This document shows positions 1 to 62,000 of a stretch of 64,000 nt of DNA, in pieces. The stretch's first letter is position 1. Each line of letters opens with the position of its first letter. The notes beneath the pieces are model-generated. The model was not told the DNA's origin. It made no database searches and saw only the letters and a list, made by a program, of their open reading frames with translations. Source of the DNA: Emticicia oligotrophica DSM 17448 (lineage in GTDB: Bacteria > Bacteroidota > Bacteroidia > Cytophagales > Spirosomataceae); the NCBI RefSeq assembly GCF_000263195.1, contig NC_018748.1, forward strand, positions 1,922,001 through 1,986,000, read 5' to 3'. A program made the translations under genes and the position numbers.

Positions 1-575
1 TATCCTTTTTTTATCGCAGCTAATCTTTTGGGGCGAGCTGGGTGTGAGCCACCATCATAATCAGATGTAAGTTTACTTATAGCAGCTTGAGCTTCTTTCA
101 AAGTTGCTCCCATTTGATACATCACAAATCCGGAGAATTCATCTGCCTCTAATTCTTTAGTTGGGTCTGAACCTCCTTCAATAATTGTATGGCCTTGCAA
201 ATGATGACCAATTTCGTGAGCTAAAATACTTAATGCACCCCAATCTGATTTCGAAAGGTCATTGGCTTTTTTCATAAATGCTCCATCATAGACAATCAAC
301 CTTGTTTGACCTTGAATAGCTGCAAAACAATTATCCGTATTTGGACATTCCATCACATAAAAGTTTCTTTTCAATCCACTTCTTCTTACAATTTCATCCA
401 CTGCTTTTTCAGCAATTTCTTTTGAACGGAAACTAAATTGACTACAAAATGCTCTTTCGTTTATTTTTTGTCCGTAATAATTATATCCAAGTGAATGTAC
501 TGTTTCTTCTTGAGCATTTGCAATACTTAAGATTGTGGAAAACACTGTGGACAGTGTTAATAACTTTAGTTTCAT
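1..575 (-). CDS. Exported zinc metallopeptidase, M48-like (C-terminus cut by window edge)
   Basis: Reading the minus strand from ATG at 575 gives an open frame of 191 codons that runs off the left edge. Residues 1-22 are a signal peptide ending in A-N-A-Q. HEIGHH at about residues 120-125 is a zincin HExxH motif, and ELEADE at about 141-146 resembles the ExxAD third-ligand segment of M48-type peptidases. It should therefore be a periplasmic or surface protease (family inference). The Cys residues at about 44, 77 and 83 are consistent with an exported protein. Its true C-terminus is not visible. The nearest gene upstream on the same strand is the TPR gene, separated by a terminator, so it is probably transcribed alone. 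An overlapping open frame at 481-702 is a shadow of this one. Confidence 0.8.
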   Translation of the reverse strand, partial: MKLKLLTLSTVFSTILSIANAQEETVHSLGYNYYGQKINERAFCSQFSFRSKEIAEKAVDEIVRRSGLKRNFYVMECPNTDNCFAAIQGQTRLIVYDGAFMKKANDLSKSDWGALSILAHEIGHHLQGHTIIEGGSDPTKELEADEFSGFVMYQMGATLKEAQAAISKLTSDYDGGSHPARPKRLAAIKKG

Positions 576-699: not shown

Positions 700-722
700 C
701 AATATATAAATGTGGAAAACAA

Positions 723-2525
723 TTAGTTTATTGTATCTCCTCGTAAATTTCTAAATCGCTTTCGTGCCTCCGCACCATAAATTGAACCAGGGAACTTTTG
801 AAGTATTTCTCTATACAATTCCATAGCTTTATCTTTTTGGCCAAAATACTCTTCATAAATTTTTGCTTCTAAAAATATCGCATCATCAGCCAATATATCG
901 AAGTTATAATTTTTTCTTAGTAGCTCTAAATCTTCAAGAGCTTTTTGTGGTTCATTTACTTTTAAATGCGTGTTTGCTTTAAGCCAAAGTATATCATCGG
1001 CCAAACTATGTGACTTATATTTTTCGAATATTGAATCCAATGCACGCATGGCTTCATCATTTCTATTTTGAAATAACAATAAATCAACTTTGGCATATTC
1101 TTGCATGGCAACTTCAGAGGTATCAAGCCCAATATTATCTTGTATCAGCAAACTCAATTGCATGGCATCATTGGCAATTTCTCGGGTAGTTGCTTTTTTT
1201 AAAATGTCAAGGATTTCCTTTGCTAGGTCAAACTCACCGCTGTAGTAATGAAGTTTTGCGTTTCTCAGCTTAGCTTCTTGCCCGAGTTGGTCTTCCTTTT
1301 GAGATTTTTCAACCTGTGAATAGAGCAGAGTGGCTTCCCAAGGTTCGTTTTTTAGTATGTAAATATCACCCAAATCTAACTTACATCTATCTCTAAAGGC
1401 ATTATCTGAGCCTGCTATCTTGATTGCTGTTTCAAGTACTGTGATGGCAGTGTCTTTTTCATTCAAATAAAAAGCATAAAGTTGAGCTGCATTGCGTAAT
1501 GCCTCCATTGTCTTGATGTTTCTGCCTAAATCTGAAAATAAACTTTGATAATCTTTAATCAATGCCCTTATGTCTGTAATGTTGACAGGATAAGTTGTTT
1601 TTACCACTTCTTCTTTGCAGAATAACGCATTTCTTCTTGCATAAATATAGTATTGACCTTGAGGATATTCTTTCATCACATAGTCATACATTTGTATGGC
1701 ACTTTTAAAATCTTTATTTACCAAAGCAGTTTGAGCTAATTCAAAAACACTTTGTCCATCTTGTCTAAGGCGTCGGTCCAATGCTCTTGTTTGTATAAAG
1801 GCCTTAGAAAACTCTTTCTGCTGCACTAAATGCCAAATTAGAAGGTTTGCATAGTATTGTTCCGTTGGAAACCTCTGTACCTTGCTGTAAAGGGCTTTTT
1901 CAAGCATTTCTATTTCAGCATCTGTTTTCAAATTATCTTGGAACGTTGCTTTTACGTAATCGGCATTGCCTTCTACTAATCCATACTTCAACATTTCTTC
2001 TATCATTTGCTCTTTTTGCCCATTATATAGATAGGCTCTGGCCATCAAAATAGAGAATTTGTTTTCATCTCTAGCTTGTTCTCTTCCTCTTTTTAATAAC
2101 TGAATAACTAAATCAGTTTTTGAATTCTTGTATAAAAAATCTTGGAGCTCATAAATTGTTCCTTCATTTCTTGCCGCAAGGTCAATTAAAGCTTCCATTT
2201 CTTTTTGAGCTTCTACAAATTTACCAGTCATTTCGAGCAAGGCTGTGTAATCTGCTCTAAAAGTTATACCTGTTATATCGTTGTTCTTTATTTGACGCCT
2301 CAAATATTTTTCAGCTTCATCATAGTTTTTCAGTTTAAATAAACATTGAATATAATTCGCATGAATTAAACGTACATTGTTCCTATCCTTCGCAATTTTT
2401 TGAAAAATGTCCTTAGCCTTTTCATATTCTCCTTGTTTAAAATATTCATTGGCCAACTCAATATCTTGAGCTTTTAGAATTCCGCTTATCAGTAAGAATA
2501 AGATTATTAACACATTCCGTTTCAT
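723..2525 (-). CDS. Exported TPR-repeat protein
   Basis: The open frame extends to 2654, but the first 43 codons have no signal-peptide character. The internal ATG at 2525 begins MKRNVLIILFLLISGILKAQ, a clear signal peptide, so the protein is about 600 residues. The mature part is almost entirely helical tetratricopeptide-like repeats (for example ANEYFKQGEYEKAKDIFQKI near the N-terminus and KAMELYREILQKFPGSIYGA near the C-terminus). Such proteins are usually periplasmic scaffolds for protein-protein contacts; no catalytic motif is visible. It is a single gene with its own terminator, lying directly beside the candidate replication origin. Specific function not recognised. Confidence 0.85.
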   Translation of the reverse strand: MKRNVLIILFLLISGILKAQDIELANEYFKQGEYEKAKDIFQKIAKDRNNVRLIHANYIQCLFKLKNYDEAEKYLRRQIKNNDITGITFRADYTALLEMTGKFVEAQKEMEALIDLAARNEGTIYELQDFLYKNSKTDLVIQLLKRGREQARDENKFSILMARAYLYNGQKEQMIEEMLKYGLVEGNADYVKATFQDNLKTDAEIEMLEKALYSKVQRFPTEQYYANLLIWHLVQQKEFSKAFIQTRALDRRLRQDGQSVFELAQTALVNKDFKSAIQMYDYVMKEYPQGQYYIYARRNALFCKEEVVKTTYPVNITDIRALIKDYQSLFSDLGRNIKTMEALRNAAQLYAFYLNEKDTAITVLETAIKIAGSDNAFRDRCKLDLGDIYILKNEPWEATLLYSQVEKSQKEDQLGQEAKLRNAKLHYYSGEFDLAKEILDILKKATTREIANDAMQLSLLIQDNIGLDTSEVAMQEYAKVDLLLFQNRNDEAMRALDSIFEKYKSHSLADDILWLKANTHLKVNEPQKALEDLELLRKNYNFDILADDAIFLEAKIYEEYFGQKDKAMELYREILQKFPGSIYGAEARKRFRNLRGDTIN

Positions 2526-2994
2526 ACCTAAAAAAATAAAAAATATATTATTTAAAATGTTGTTTTTGTTTATTAGCACTGTGGATTTGTGAATTTCTTT
2601 TATTTGTTGAAAACCCCATTTAAAGCTGTGTACATAACTAATCGTCTTATCCACAAGTTTATTATGCTAATTAACACTTATATTCTTGATAATCAATTCT
2701 AATGCTATTTATTGACACTCATAAAAAATATTTTGTGTGAATTATTTGCTTCACTTTCCACAGTATGTGTCCACGTTAATTAACAAGATGTGAATTGAGG
2801 ATAACCTCCTACTTATGCCTCTTTTCCACTGTTGAAAATTTCTTTCCACCATTTCTTTTCTTTTCCCACAACCCTTTCAACCCCTCTGTTCACTATATCC
2901 ATTTATAATCCACATGCTTGTCCACAATATTTATTGGATATTTTTTATTTTGAATTGACCTTTTTTGAATCGGTATTGGTGAAACACCTTTCCC
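2526..2994. other. Candidate chromosomal replication origin (oriC): DnaA-box cluster
   Basis: This 469-bp stretch holds no credible gene. It contains a perfect DnaA box TTATCCACA at 2647-2655, one-mismatch boxes TAATCCACA at 2906-2914 and TTGTCCACA at 2918-2926, and two-mismatch boxes at 2580-2588 (reverse strand), 2754-2762 and 2822-2830. All but the first lie on the same strand. An AT-rich tract at about 2927-2965 adjoins the last box and could be the unwinding element. Reverse boxes TGTGGAAAA occur at 534-542 and 711-719, on the other side of the TPR gene. mnmG (gidA), a common neighbour of oriC in bacteria, is 1.7 kb away with parS-like sites beyond it. The function is inferred from box clustering and context. 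Confidence 0.6.
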
Positions 2995-4605
2995 CTACTT
3001 TATTGAAATATCTCTTACCTCAAAATTCGCCTTTAACCTTATTGGTTCTGAATAAAATGATATGCTTTCCGGAAGTATATTATTCTCTACATTTCCATAA
3101 TCCCAATATCCATTTTCATTTTCGTCCTTAATTATCCTAATTAAATATATACCGGGTTTTACATGAATGAATAAGAACTTATCTTTAGCCTTCTGCTCTG
3201 AAACAACCTCATATTTCTCATTAATTAATTGTATAATTTTATTGGATTTCTTTTCTTCAAAACTTCCTTCAAGTAGTGCATATTCTTCGGTTTTTAGGAT
3301 TGAATTTTTTTGTATAAATCGCTCACTCGAATCTCCCATGATATCTACAAATGCACCTTTAACCAACTCAAGTTTTATGTCTTGTTTGGCCTTTATTTCT
3401 TTTTGAATGATTAGTTTGGTTTTTGATTGATTCCAAATGATATTCGAATTTTCAAGTTTTTCTTCTGTGATTGTATCTGATAATATTTTGATTTTCGTTA
3501 AATCAAAGTCTTTTATTGGCGTTAAAAATTTTAGTTCGTAAACCAATTTTTTCTCTACATCTTCTCCTTGTTTCGGTTTTATACTGAATTGTGTATATTC
3601 CTTTTTTTCTTTTTTCTTTTTCTCAGGTTCTCTAAACTTAATTTTTTGAAAATGAGTGAGTACATTTCCACTCGAATCTTTTACAGTAATATTTGCTTTA
3701 AGTGTATCAAGGCTTTGGTTTACATTATAAAACTTAAGTTCTTTTCCTTCTCCGTAGTAAGGAATACTATCGTTTTTTCTTTCAAATTTCACTTCAAAAG
3801 ATAAAATGTTTTTATCATACTGAACTGTAAAATCTTCTACTTTTGAAATAGCTTTTTGATTTTTTGGTTTTTCATTATTAGCATTTGCGAGTAATAAATT
3901 TACGTTTGAATAATTTTTACTCAGTTTGATCGTATCTTTTGTAAAACCTATTGATTCTGTTTTTGCATCAAATTTTAGGTTATTATTTTTATCTGTAAAT
4001 GCATAGATTTTATAATTACCACTTTTGATGTTTTCAAATTGATAATTTCCGCTTGAATCTGTTTTTATAAAGTAATCAGGTTTTGTCTTTTTTAGGTCTA
4101 ATGAATCCTGAATTTTATATAAAGCTACGTGTGCTTCTAAAATTGGTTGGTTTGTCAACAAGCTTTTCACATTTCCACTTACTTTCATTGAATCTATTAA
4201 GTTTCCTGTACTGAAGACAAGTTTCAGATTTCTGGCTTCATTTCTTTCATTCAAATCCTTTATTCCTTTTCTAAAATTCAGTGTGTAAGTTGTACTATCC
4301 TTAAATTGATTATCAAATTTTAGGATTACACTATTAGCTTTTGATTTAATATTAAATGAACCTTCTATTTCAGGAACAACAAGTAGTTCTTGTCGTAAAC
4401 TTGTTACATCTACTAACTCATCAAAGGCTAGTGTAATTGATTTTTCTTTAAAATTCCTTTGCCCATTTTTGGGATTTGATGAAATGAGTTTCGGGGGTAT
4501 TTCATCTTTTTTACCACCTGTCGGTGGAACAAACTGTGCACAGCCCCAAATACTTCCAGCTATTGACCAAATAATAATGTTTCTAATTGATTTATTAATT
4601 ATCAT
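2995..4605 (-). CDS. Lipoprotein with N-terminal SbsA-type Ig-like domain
   Basis: This 536-residue protein has an N-terminal hydrophobic segment and a lipobox-like Cys at about residue 22, followed by the motif PPTGGKKDEIPP that is typical of a conserved Bacteroidota lipoprotein family. Residues about 35-135 look like an SbsA/Big_5 Ig-like domain (SNPKNGQRNF, ITLAFDELVD, DSTTYTLNF). A carboxypeptidase-regulatory-like beta sandwich follows at about 140-215 (TDSSGNYQFENIKSGNYKIY). The C-terminal part is beta-rich and charged and ends with another small sandwich. It is predicted to be an outer-membrane-anchored surface or periplasmic protein of unknown role. It lies between the candidate origin and mnmG on the same strand, with a terminator between it and mnmG. 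Confidence 0.8.
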   Translation of the reverse strand: MIINKSIRNIIIWSIAGSIWGCAQFVPPTGGKKDEIPPKLISSNPKNGQRNFKEKSITLAFDELVDVTSLRQELLVVPEIEGSFNIKSKANSVILKFDNQFKDSTTYTLNFRKGIKDLNERNEARNLKLVFSTGNLIDSMKVSGNVKSLLTNQPILEAHVALYKIQDSLDLKKTKPDYFIKTDSSGNYQFENIKSGNYKIYAFTDKNNNLKFDAKTESIGFTKDTIKLSKNYSNVNLLLANANNEKPKNQKAISKVEDFTVQYDKNILSFEVKFERKNDSIPYYGEGKELKFYNVNQSLDTLKANITVKDSSGNVLTHFQKIKFREPEKKKKEKKEYTQFSIKPKQGEDVEKKLVYELKFLTPIKDFDLTKIKILSDTITEEKLENSNIIWNQSKTKLIIQKEIKAKQDIKLELVKGAFVDIMGDSSERFIQKNSILKTEEYALLEGSFEEKKSNKIIQLINEKYEVVSEQKAKDKFLFIHVKPGIYLIRIIKDENENGYWDYGNVENNILPESISFYSEPIRLKANFEVRDISIK

Positions 4606-4679: not shown

Positions 4680-6542
4680 TTATCTTCCTAGGTGAATCAT
4701 AATAACTGATATATCTGCTGGTGAAACCCCACTTATTCTCGAAGCTTGTCCTAAAGTTTGTGGTTTTATCTTCTTTAATTTTTGTCTTGCTTCAATCGAA
4801 ATTGATAGTAACTTTTCGTAGTCAAAGTCTGGGTTTATTCTTAAATCTTCCAATCTCGACATTTTCTCAGCCATTAATAATTCTTTTTCTATATAACTTT
4901 CGTACTTCACTTTTATTACTGCTTGTTCGATTATTTCGTCATCAAATCTGCTCAGATACTCTGTCATTTCTTTGTCTAACATTCTTATATTATTGATTTC
5001 AATTTCAGGTCTTTTCAATATACTATAGAATGTTGATTTTTCCCTAAGCCCTGAAGAGCCTATTCCTTCAAGATATGAATTTGCTACATCGGGTGCAATC
5101 TTTCTCGTTTTGATTTCTTTTACTATATCTTCTGCTGAAGTTTGTTTATACTTCATTCTATCTAATCGTTCCACAGAAGCCAATCCTAAATCATAACCTT
5201 TTTGGGTTAATCTTATATCCGCATTGTCTTGTCTTAATAAAGTTCTGAATTCAGCTCTTGAAGTAAACATTCTATAAGGCTCATCTGTCCCTTTATTTAT
5301 TAAGTCATCAATTAAAACGCCTATATAAGCTTCATTACGTTTGAGGATGAATTCTTCTTTTTCATGAACTTTATTGTGTGCATTTATACCAGCCATCAAT
5401 CCTTGACATGCCGCTTCTTCATAACCTGTTGTTCCATTTATTTGCCCTGCGAAATATAAGTTCTCAATTAAATGAGTTTCAAGGGTTAGTTTCAATTGAG
5501 TTGGTGGAAAAAAATCATATTCAATGGCATATCCAGGTCTAAACATTCTTACTTTCTCAAAACCTTTAATTTTAGTCAAGGCCTCATACTGAATTTCTTC
5601 AGGCAACGAAGTAGAAAATCCATTTATATACATTTCTACTGTATTCCATCCTTCTGGTTCTACAAATATTTGATGATGGTCTTTATCTGCAAATCGATTT
5701 ATTTTATCTTCAACAGATGGACAATACCTTGGACCTAGACCTTTAATTCTTCCACTAAACATCGGTGACTTGTCGAACCCTTTTCTTAGTACTTCGTGAA
5801 CTTTTTCGTTCGTATAGGTTACATAACAACTTCTTTGCTTAGTTAATTTAGGTGTATCTGTATATGAGAATTTCTCTGGATTTTCATCTCCTTTTTGTTC
5901 TTCCATTAATTCCCAATTCAGCGAACGTCCATCAATTCTTGGTGGAGTACCAGTTTTCATTCTTCCAGATTCAAATCCTAAACTTATTAATTGCTCTGTA
6001 ATTCCATAAGCTGCTTTCTCTCCAGTTCTACCTCCACCAAAGTTTTTTTCTCCAATATGAATCTTTCCGTTTAAAAACGTCCCATTTGTCAATACTACGG
6101 CTTTAGCTTTAACCTCAAGTCCCATTCCTGTACGCACCCCCACTACCCTATTATCCTTGATAATTAATCCTTCTATCATTTCTTGCCAAAAGTCTACGTT
6201 CGGGATTTTTTCCAACGTATCTCTCCATTCTTGGGCAAATAACATTCTATCACTTTGGCATCGTGGACTCCACATAGCCGGACCTTTCGAACGATTAAGC
6301 ATTCTAAATTGAATCATGGTTTTATCACTTATGATTCCTGATTGTCCGCCTAAAGCATCTATTTCACGAACTATTTGTCCTTTTGCTACACCGCCCATTG
6401 CTGGATTACATGACATTTGTGCTATCGTGTGCATATTCATTGTAACCAATAAAACAGACGAACCCATATTTGCGGCAGCGGCAGCAGCTTCGCAACCTGC
6501 ATGCCCAGCACCTACTACAATTACATCGTACTCTTTAAACAT
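4680..6542 (-). CDS. mnmG: tRNA U34 carboxymethylaminomethyl synthesis enzyme MnmG (GidA)
   Basis: MnmG, together with MnmE, installs the (carboxymethyl)aminomethyl group at C5 of wobble uridine in certain tRNAs, using FAD, NADH and a folate one-carbon donor. The 620-residue length is normal for the family. Visible motifs are the FAD-binding GAGHAGCEAA at 11-20, CNPAMGGVAKGQ at 45-56, the family signature GPRYCPSVEDKI at 270-281 and TTGYEEAACQG at 371-381. The C-terminal helical domain ends SRISGVSPADISVIMIHL, as expected for MnmE/tRNA contacts. The start is ATG at 6542. It appears monocistronic, with a terminator downstream and parS-like palindromes 15-68 bp upstream of the start. mnmE is not in the window. 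Confidence 0.98.
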   Translation of the reverse strand: MFKEYDVIVVGAGHAGCEAAAAAANMGSSVLLVTMNMHTIAQMSCNPAMGGVAKGQIVREIDALGGQSGIISDKTMIQFRMLNRSKGPAMWSPRCQSDRMLFAQEWRDTLEKIPNVDFWQEMIEGLIIKDNRVVGVRTGMGLEVKAKAVVLTNGTFLNGKIHIGEKNFGGGRTGEKAAYGITEQLISLGFESGRMKTGTPPRIDGRSLNWELMEEQKGDENPEKFSYTDTPKLTKQRSCYVTYTNEKVHEVLRKGFDKSPMFSGRIKGLGPRYCPSVEDKINRFADKDHHQIFVEPEGWNTVEMYINGFSTSLPEEIQYEALTKIKGFEKVRMFRPGYAIEYDFFPPTQLKLTLETHLIENLYFAGQINGTTGYEEAACQGLMAGINAHNKVHEKEEFILKRNEAYIGVLIDDLINKGTDEPYRMFTSRAEFRTLLRQDNADIRLTQKGYDLGLASVERLDRMKYKQTSAEDIVKEIKTRKIAPDVANSYLEGIGSSGLREKSTFYSILKRPEIEINNIRMLDKEMTEYLSRFDDEIIEQAVIKVKYESYIEKELLMAEKMSRLEDLRINPDFDYEKLLSISIEARQKLKKIKPQTLGQASRISGVSPADISVIMIHLGR

Positions 6543-6594: not shown

Positions 6595-6610
6595 TGTTTC
6601 ACGTGGAACG
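6595..6610. other. parS-like ParB-binding site 2
   Basis: TGTTTCACGTGGAACG matches the reverse complement of the B. subtilis parS sequence (TGTTTCACGTGGAACA) at 15 of 16 positions. It lies in the intergenic region upstream of mnmG, 3.6 kb from the candidate oriC. ParB family members recognise this core across most bacterial phyla (established). Use by this organism's ParB is inferred. Confidence 0.75.
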
Positions 6611-9800: not shown

Positions 9801-10124
9801 CCTATCTCCTATTTCAGGAAAAAACTTGCCAATTTCTTGAGCGGCTTTTTCATAAGAAAGCGGTTCATGAAAATGAAATAAATACAAAAAAGGCTTAATC
9901 ACCCATGCAAAAAGTGAATAAATTACTAAGGCAAGAAAACTAAAAAACAAGGTTGCTCTGATTGTTGAATTGAATCTACCAAAATATTCAACGGTATTAA
10001 GCAACAGAAATGTGGATAAAACCAAAGCAAGTGTGAATAACGAACCTTTAATAAGAAGGTTTTTATAATACTTTCTTTTGTAATCGTCTATTTTTTCAAA
10101 AATAGTTTTTACAGATGGAGACAT
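6801..10124 (-). CDS. DUF4175-family membrane protein with long coiled coil
   Basis: This 1107-residue protein starts at ATG 10124. The N-terminus has two hydrophobic helices at about 24-45 and 55-78 and a third at about 155-172 (YVLPPLALIMLIAAV). A beta-rich, Ig-like extracytoplasmic region follows at about 190-500. A very long Lys/Glu/Gln-rich coiled coil covers about 510-810, then Met/Gln/Gly-rich and helical segments run to the C-terminus. This architecture matches the Bacteroidota DUF4175 family, which has no established function. A mechanical or scaffolding envelope role is a guess. xth lies upstream on the same strand with a 24-bp gap, so the two may be cotranscribed. Confidence 0.8.
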   Translation of the reverse strand: MSPSVKTIFEKIDDYKRKYYKNLLIKGSLFTLALVLSTFLLLNTVEYFGRFNSTIRATLFFSFLALVIYSLFAWVIKPFLYLFHFHEPLSYEKAAQEIGKFFPEIGDRLLNTLQLAQISDSDNSLLQASIAQKTHELKFVKFADAIKIDENKKYLKYVLPPLALIMLIAAVSPKFFKSSTERIVYFQKDFAEEAPFKFKITNPELKAVKNEDFTLNLSLIGNAIPEAVYLVANDRKFKMNSVDGKNYNFTFSKVQDALDFHFLASGFKSNEFELELISRPNLLSFDVSLNYPSYLNKSNESFDNVGNLVVPEGTTVEWNFKASNTDSLYLLFENEPKHLSKDGFGDNFSYVRRMKNSSPYKIQLKNQFSANRENIDFYINVIPDKFPQIQLEQVKDTTLFNYIVLGGNINDDYGLSKFKLFYRPIRETTSNQNQAFVSLDVPFNKTQISQSFYYQFPLIELKLNPGEKVEYFLQVWDNDGVNGSKSTKTPVLTFALPSSKNYDAEIKKASEKTENMLEKLSEKSKKLKNELNNLENKLKSKKDLDFQEKKQLEDLLKKRDELMAEMKAMQEQFQQMQEKTNRFQQQSPELEKKMNQLKKLMEEIMNEDTSKMYEELKKMLEKGLDEKTVEQLEKLKNQERNMDKDIDRTLKLFKQLQMQQKIEKTANELEKLAEKQDKLSDETQKNDKEQNQQQKESKNDELKKEQEKLSKEFDDKKEQMKDIEELSKELKKDFDEQKDEQDEISDDQQNSEKQLEENQNNAASKSQKKASQKMKKMAQKMKESMKSQEMKEMDEDIDALRAILENLVKLSFDQEKIMKDFRSLNVSDPRFIKLSQEQLKIQDDAKMIEDSLYSLAKRVLQIQSFVTKEVTSMRNSMDESVKFIKERKLNIASAKQQFSMTSINNLALMLSDTFSQMQQMMANAMPGSGKSKGKKGSMPMPMGEKQEQINKGMDRLSKGGMSGREMSEQAAKLAQEQAELRRRIQQLQNELKGTDIGKKLGNELKDIEKRMDENETDLVNKRVNPDLIKRSRDIQTRLLEAEKAIQQQEEDPTRQSKTAQQFNRQSPPSMEKFMQEKQKQVELIRTVPPNYTPFYKKQTDNYFRKIK

Positions 10125-61970: not shown

Positions 61971-62000
61971 TGTGGATAAGTAGGTGTTTCACGTGGAAAA
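61971..62000. other. DnaA box adjoining a parS-like site
   Basis: TGTGGATAA at 61971-61979 is a perfect DnaA box on the reverse strand. TGTTTCACGTGGAAAA at 61985-62000 matches the B. subtilis parS (TGTTTCACGTGGAACA) at 15 of 16 positions. Both lie in the 143-bp gap between divergent psd and the membrane/TPR gene. Confidence 0.7.

Follow-up and report, generated by a model that had tools for sequence, protein, structure and literature searches.

Replication origins that lie beside mnmG and far from dnaA have already been reported for Bacteroidota (PMC4755523, PMC11278836, PMC12843772), a phylum in which origins far from dnaA are common (PMC4755523). The predicted oriC of Prevotella intermedia is a cluster of DnaA boxes at a GC-skew switch, far from dnaA (PMC4755523). 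Among the Flavobacteriaceae, the predicted oriC of Mariniflexile litorale (PMC11278836) and that of Algorimicrobium (PMC12843772) lie beside mnmG in agreement with GC skew, and that of M. litorale is not at dnaA (PMC11278836, in which one figure legend swaps the oriC and ter labels relative to the text). Both are Ori-Finder predictions, and the sections of the two papers that present them give no dissected layout (PMC11278836, PMC12843772). In Melioribacter roseus, of the Bacteroidetes/Chlorobi group, an origin between dnaA and dnaN was predicted from skew and boxes (PMC3534657). The literature searched, from which subscription papers were mostly out of reach, yielded little experimental work on Bacteroidota origins and no dissected origin from the Cytophagales. 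The Flavobacteriaceae belong to another order than the host studied here, and Cytophaga hutchinsonii belongs to the same one; for the latter species, Xu et al. reportedly described in 2012 a functional oriC and oriC plasmids.

The locus described here is in Emticicia oligotrophica DSM 17448, within a window of 64,000 bases (C5:1,922,001-1,986,000; coordinates without a prefix are window positions). C5 is a 4,798,158-bp contig of a 5.22-Mb genome in six contigs (G000), on which the candidate oriC occupies 1.9245-1.9250 Mb. Like the predicted Flavobacteriaceae origins, it is a neighbor of mnmG; as in P. intermedia and M. litorale, it is remote from dnaA; and, as in M. roseus, skew and boxes both point to it, although its position is not the one between dnaA and dnaN seen in that bacterium. 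It is framed by three genes:

2526-2994, no strand assigned: candidate oriC core, from the start of the TPR gene to the end of the Big_5 gene, recognized by box density and by synteny and boxes in 30 gaps
723-2525, minus strand: TPR-repeat gene, with the core on one side and the satellite boxes on the other, its extent based on orthologue starts
2995-4605, minus strand: Ig-like (Big_5) lipoprotein gene, the synteny anchor, matched in 54 of the 58 genomes searched, G000 among them
4680-6542, minus strand: mnmG (gidA; Pfam GIDA, 8e-165)

This gap contains DnaA boxes that are conserved in relatives, a skew switch and a parS-like site lie nearby, the gene order recurs, and the genome encodes a DnaA that has a DNA-binding domain. 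Boxes, skew, parS, and synteny are independent lines of evidence that strongly support reading 2526-2994 as the chromosomal replication origin, and we put the probability of this reading at about 0.92. The original prediction had proposed the same and had staked it on the position of the skew switch and on the persistence of the boxes in relatives; both were checked, and the proposal is upheld.

TTATCCACA is a DnaA box of the Escherichia coli type; the same box is given in PMC8287927. The cluster of boxes that had been predicted is real:

2647-2655, plus strand: perfect DnaA box TTATCCACA, by motif match
2796-2804, minus strand: DnaA box with one mismatch (TTATCCTCA) inside the conserved block TGTGAATTGAGGATAA, by motif match and alignment
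2906-2926, plus strand: two DnaA boxes with one mismatch each (TAATCCACA at 2906 and TTGTCCACA at 2918), by motif match and alignment

The gap thus holds one perfect match to TTATCCACA, as predicted, and three rather than the predicted two with one mismatch, in addition to 10 with two mismatches. Under a first-order Markov model, 0.25 matches with at most one mismatch would be expected where four are found, and 2.62 with at most two mismatches where 14 are found; neither count was reached in 2000 simulations. The strand bias that had been claimed depends on the cut-off and is weaker than stated, with three of four boxes on the plus strand at one mismatch or fewer and 7 of 14 at two or fewer.

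To rank box density, 469-base windows were compared over 1.61 Mb sampled from the 4.80-Mb chromosome. By most measures, though not all, the gap is the densest DnaA-box stretch in this sample. The 469-base window from 2502 ranks first for TTATCCACA with at most two mismatches (15, next 10), and the gap ranks first for TTWTNCACA with at most one mismatch (13, next 8), for TCCACA (5, next 3), and for TCCAC (8, next 6). For TTATCCACA with at most one mismatch, it shares a three-way tie at four, and for exact TTWTNCACA it is outside the top 12 sampled windows. The excess is local, because the window as a whole shows none (235 matches to TTWTNCACA with at most one mismatch versus 247 expected). All 49 perfect TTATCCACA boxes of the genome are on C5, and both the densest 50 kb (six boxes, a number reached in 26 of 5000 uniform simulations) and the densest 100 kb (eight of the 49; 12 of 5000) begin at C5:1,903,636.

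For comparison with relatives, we used the gaps at the 30 best-matching Big_5 loci from the 58 genomes searched. Twenty-eight come from the host's own family and two (G039 and G051) from families elsewhere in the order; one genus contributes 10 of them, which are not independent. For four long gaps, the first 520 bases were used; longer stretches (L115 and L116) took the place of loci L072 and L073, and the TPR start of L093 is uncertain. Locus L094, the only one used of three from a contig scan, is on the same contig as L066 of G010 and was kept out of the counts. The order of TPR gene, box-rich gap, Ig-like lipoprotein gene, and mnmG recurs in the family. A match to mnmG is on the expected side in all 30 loci and in L094, in a number of cases at a distance of about 1 kb, and the TPR gene is on the other side in 28 of these 31 loci and, in longer stretches, in two more; at L078, the contig ends first. 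In total, the 30 gaps contain 221 boxes with at most one mismatch versus 7.2 expected, about seven per gap, and each of these best-matching gaps has at least three. The expectation that relatives would keep the boxes is therefore borne out.

Three further loci outside the 30 delimit this pattern. In G044, from another family, TPR, gap, Big_5, mnmG, parS, and DUF4175 follow in order, and the gap has the left element (described below) at two mismatches and only two boxes with at most one mismatch. Within the 9 kb read at the Big_5 match of G014 and of G055, no TPR gene, mnmG, or box cluster was found. Because the G044 gap is poor in boxes and G014 and G055 are without the locus at their Big_5 match, the layout is common in the family and not universal in the order. 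Within the genus, the ten gaps can be aligned over most of their extent. Between G000 and G010, identity is 73 per cent in the core, 71 per cent in the gap upstream of mnmG, and 64 per cent in the TPR-M48 gap; since the core is about as similar as the gap upstream of mnmG, what is conserved is the boxes and their positions, more than overall identity.

The gap is also the upstream region of the TPR gene, and its recurrent gene order would suit a DnaA-controlled promoter region whose boxes serve transcription only. Such a region would not be expected to carry about seven near-perfect boxes per gap across the 30 gaps, nor to have a parS site and a skew switch nearby, and we regard this explanation as highly improbable.

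As an origin, the locus would need a place to open, and its left end has a composite arrangement that suits this role:

2526-2578, no strand assigned: AT-rich tract, probable DNA unwinding element, from A+T content and alignment
2557-2574, minus strand: six consecutive NAN triplets, DnaA-trio-like, after the pattern defined in PMC8287927
2579-2596, minus strand: conserved left element CTGTGGATTTGTG with an abutting box, matching CTGTGGAWWTGTG exactly

The 50 bases to the left of the tandem boxes are 90 per cent A+T (72-96 per cent across the 30 gaps). The tandem minus-strand boxes, at 2580-2588 and 2588-2596, are both weak in G000, and the triplet run begins 5 nt from the box. With at most two mismatches, CTGTGGAWWTGTG is present in 29 of the 30 gaps versus 41 of 1500 simulated gaps, and in 29 of 30 an AT-rich tract and a tandem box pair with DnaA-trio-like triplets are at the left end. 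The NAN runs average 4.67 triplets versus 2.40 at control positions; runs of at least three, which are frequent by chance in AT-rich DNA, occur in 25 of the 30 gaps versus 38 per cent of control positions and are missing in the other five. This arrangement is the one described for the basal unwinding system (PMC8287927), for which we required a box with at most two mismatches, a spacer of at most 16 nt, and at least three NAN triplets; the sequence in G000 has a box with two mismatches, a 5-nt spacer, and six triplets. An AT-rich element adjoining boxes, one of the marks by which we recognized an oriC, is thus present as far as sequence can tell. The original prediction had pointed to an AT-rich right end. 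That end is indeed AT-rich, but the conserved AT tract beside tandem boxes is at the left. Because the conserved tract, the tandem pair, and the triplets all sit there, opening is likelier on the left (2526-2591) than at the right-hand AT tract.

Two more elements lie between the left module and the Big_5 gene:

2679-2691, plus strand: IHF/HU-like site (YAANNNNYTGATW with one mismatch), overlapping the palindrome TTGATAATCAA
2936-2960, plus strand: right-end element GGATATTTTTTATTTTGAATTGACC, 25 bp, non-coding, from the alignment of the genus gaps

YAANNNNYTGATW is the IHF consensus. The site is 100 bp from the left element, and matches with at most one mismatch occur at +90 to +140 in 22 of the 30 gaps versus 8 per cent of simulated ones, an interval picked after the gaps had been inspected. 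A second scan covered all offsets from 14 to 199. With the other nine genus members removed, a match lies within 2 bp of +100 in 10 of 21 gaps, and the median count over these offsets is zero. The G000 genome has two HU/IHF-family genes. The right-end element is invariant in eight of the ten genus gaps and degenerate or lost in G009 and G003; no known motif was recognized in it. Among 291 genomes of the order, a set in which G000 was the only member of its genus, it was found with at most three mismatches in G000 alone, which shows only that at this threshold the element is not widespread in the order.

GC skew was computed from 78 stretches of the chromosome and the window. The raw cumulative skew was too noisy, owing to a coding-strand effect, its minimum staying flat between 1.44 and 1.95 Mb, and third-codon-position skew was therefore used instead. 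On the top strand, the latter is mostly negative for both gene orientations at 4.70-4.80 and 0-1.92 Mb, apart from departures at 0.39, 1.64-1.70, and 1.82 Mb. Between about 1.93 and 4.67 Mb it is for the most part positive, with single orientations slightly negative in some stretches and clearly so at 1.954 and 4.60 Mb. Local reversals at C5:1,640,001-1,680,000 and C5:1,820,001-1,840,000 are perhaps inverted or acquired segments. A two-segment fit to 1128 genes gave a third-position G/(G+C) of 0.549 inside one segment and 0.458 outside it, with the negative-to-positive switch at C5:1,930,464-1,937,154 and the reverse switch at 4.665-4.702 Mb. On this 4.8-Mb chromosome, the candidate oriC is 5.5-12 kb from the negative-to-positive switch, and we counted this proximity among the marks of an oriC. 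The gap is 5.5 kb outside the support interval because the skew of mnmG and the DUF4175 gene is still negative. Replication arms from the candidate would measure about 2.76 and 2.04 Mb.

Near this switch, the DUF4175 gene carries within its 5' end (10011-10040) a pair of exact TTWTNCACA boxes (TTATCCACA and TTATTCACA) that are 12 bp apart.

Skew in three relatives was surveyed coarsely, with 20 stretches each. The switch is at 4.68-4.95 Mb in G003 (locus at 5.165 Mb) and between 1.50 and 1.66 Mb in G044 (locus at 1.746 Mb), in both cases within 0.1-0.5 Mb of the locus and not on it. In G031, the switch interval of 4.07-4.33 Mb includes the locus at 4.160 Mb, but the chromosome is a patchwork: on this single contig (L137-L156), the sampled skew is mostly negative with positive islands, as if it were rearranged or misassembled.

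Chromosome partitioning sites were sought with two motifs of different stringency, and two parS-like sites lie upstream of mnmG:

6595-6610, plus strand: parS-like site TGTTTCACGTGGAACG upstream of mnmG, at the same place in L094
6557-6572, strand not assigned: weaker parS-like site, by motif match

With at most one mismatch, TGTTTCACGTGNAAC occurs at three places in the genome (two in the window, at 6595 and 61985, and a third on contig C1), and the predicted site near mnmG is the sole exact match. The looser TGTTNCACGTGNAACA adds two matches on C5, at 3.30 and 4.51 Mb. Nine genomes with large contigs were searched with TGTTNCACGTGNAACA, and the Big_5 and mnmG locus was confirmed in seven (G000, G003, G011, G013, G031, G039, and G044). 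The other two, G014 and G055, were left out of the parS and dnaA-distance counts; they are uninformative on parS because their Big_5 match lies in another context. A parS match is just beyond the locus on the mnmG side in five of the seven (G000, G003, G031, G039, and G044; G039 has one further match away from it), and no match to TGTTNCACGTGNAACA is at the locus in G011, which has one elsewhere, or in G013, which has none genome-wide. G000 thus carries an origin-side parS, another of our marks of an oriC. Its genome has one parB-family match, at C5:4,113,223.

At 61971-62000, the one-mismatch parS site is 5 bp from a perfect DnaA box on the minus strand, some 100 bp upstream of a gene for phosphatidylserine decarboxylase.

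The DnaA ATPase domain is found at C5:522, so C5 is numbered from dnaA, which is 1.92 Mb from the candidate oriC. The N-terminal, ATPase, and helix-turn-helix domains are all present in DnaA (Bac_DnaA_C, 1e-29). Around dnaA, in the region reaching from 1500 bp ahead of the contig start to 600 bp beyond it, no box with at most one mismatch was found, and in all seven locus-confirmed genomes dnaA is at least 0.7 Mb from the locus. Three of nine large contigs compared, C5 included, are numbered from dnaA.

Box clusters and an IHF-like site also characterize datA. A locus of the datA or DARS type, which titrates or recharges DnaA near an origin without being the origin itself, could resemble this gap, and the 5.5-12 kb between the gap and the skew switch would be in keeping with it. 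IHF at datA is mentioned in PMC13036160. At the switch itself (1,930-1,937 kb), however, the best 469-base window has six boxes with at most two mismatches versus 15 at the gap; moreover, an AT-rich tract and triplets at a fixed place beside the tandem pair fit DNA opening, and parS is next door. We consider a titration or recharging locus very unlikely.

Besides the core, the origin may have outer parts beyond the TPR gene. The original prediction had listed boxes at 534-542 and 711-719, both of which exist:

534-563, minus strand: satellite cluster B, where the M48/MORN gene begins, its boxes degenerate in G000 and stronger in relatives
711-719, minus strand: DnaA box TTTTCCACA directly beyond the TPR stop codon, at the same place in G002 and G008

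Further satellite boxes lie just left of the window, at C5:1,921,803-1,921,820. A reading of the box cluster at C5:1,921,431 as coding noise was dropped, since relatives have the cluster. From these boxes, the origin had been proposed to be split around the TPR gene, and a multi-part origin that requires outer clusters B and C in addition to the core would be one form of the explanation that we favor. In the genus, cluster B lies at -190 to -168 relative to the TPR stop, where a 429-aa M48/MORN protein begins; it has at least one box with at most one mismatch in nine of ten genus genomes (not in G003); the same proportion holds for cluster C, at about -1000 to -850 and further inside the M48/MORN gene. 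G003 is without the M48/MORN gene at the locus, yet it keeps cluster C, with spacings (82, 12, 9) nearly equal to those of G001 and G008 (84, 12, 9) and G002 (12, 9). The recurrence of the outer clusters in the genus lends support to the proposed split, though both are degenerate in G000, with weaker boxes of one or two mismatches each, and clusters B and C are within coding sequence in most of the genus. Within 1400 bp in seven genomes outside the genus, no outer boxes were found in G031, G013, or G039; G029 has one weak box, G032 two, G011 four, and G030 five, those of G011 and G030 being in other places. We hold a requirement for the outer clusters to be a minority possibility.

From the arrangement of sites, we infer each DnaA, HU, and IHF binding, bending, and opening step of the following scheme. 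DnaA would load on two sets of boxes, the plus-oriented ones at the center and right of the gap and the tandem minus-strand pair at 2580-2596, and an HU/IHF-type protein would bend the DNA at about 2679-2691, joining the two arms. From the tandem pair, DnaA would extend across the short spacer onto the minus-strand triplets at 2557-2574 and open the AT-rich tract at 2526-2578, where the helicase would be loaded. ParB, acting from the parS upstream of mnmG, would segregate the new origins, and the satellite boxes (534-563, 711-719, and C5:1,921,803-1,921,820) may join by looping or tune the DnaA supply. More broadly, the family and some members of other Cytophagales families may share one ancestral, dnaA-unlinked design (an unwinding module at the left, a bend by IHF/HU some 100 bp inward, and a box array), to which the genus would add satellite clusters in the M48/MORN gene and a looped multi-part assembly around the TPR gene; in its entirety, this proposal is speculative and rather doubtful.

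The layout of sites common to many related bacteria shows how dnaA-distant origins may be built, and its conservation makes it a ready target for oriC plasmids and for locating origins in draft genomes. Contigs often start at dnaA, which in this genome is probably not the origin, and the locus is suited to experiments on the action of DnaA at an origin that lies 1.9 Mb away from dnaA. Boxes kept in a coding gene, and also where that gene is missing, would offer a clean test of the outer origin parts.

The bipartite origins of Bacillus subtilis and Helicobacter pylori (PMC8287927, PMC8235120) resemble the locus in having tandem boxes, a short spacer, triplets with a central A, and an AT-rich tract. 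The B. subtilis spacer is GGCC (PMC8235120), and the spacer is similar to it in several relatives of G000. The main text of PMC8287927 is without the word stem Bacteroid. As at this locus, a second box cluster lies beyond a gene in B. subtilis and H. pylori (PMC8287927, PMC8235120), but that gene is dnaA there and the TPR gene here. Bipartite origins are defined by clusters separated by dnaA, whereas here the TPR gene is in between and dnaA is 1.92 Mb away. Also unlike those two origins (PMC8287927, PMC8235120), the locus has an IHF-like site at about +100.

This site is part of a possible likeness to E. coli. At the E. coli oriC, gidA/mnmG is next door and an IHF-type site lies between the box on the DUE side and the array, and the present locus shares the mnmG neighbor, while its IHF-like match, with one mismatch, may correspond to the IHF-type site. 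It differs from the E. coli oriC in its spacing of about 100 bp and in its DUE side, which faces away from mnmG.
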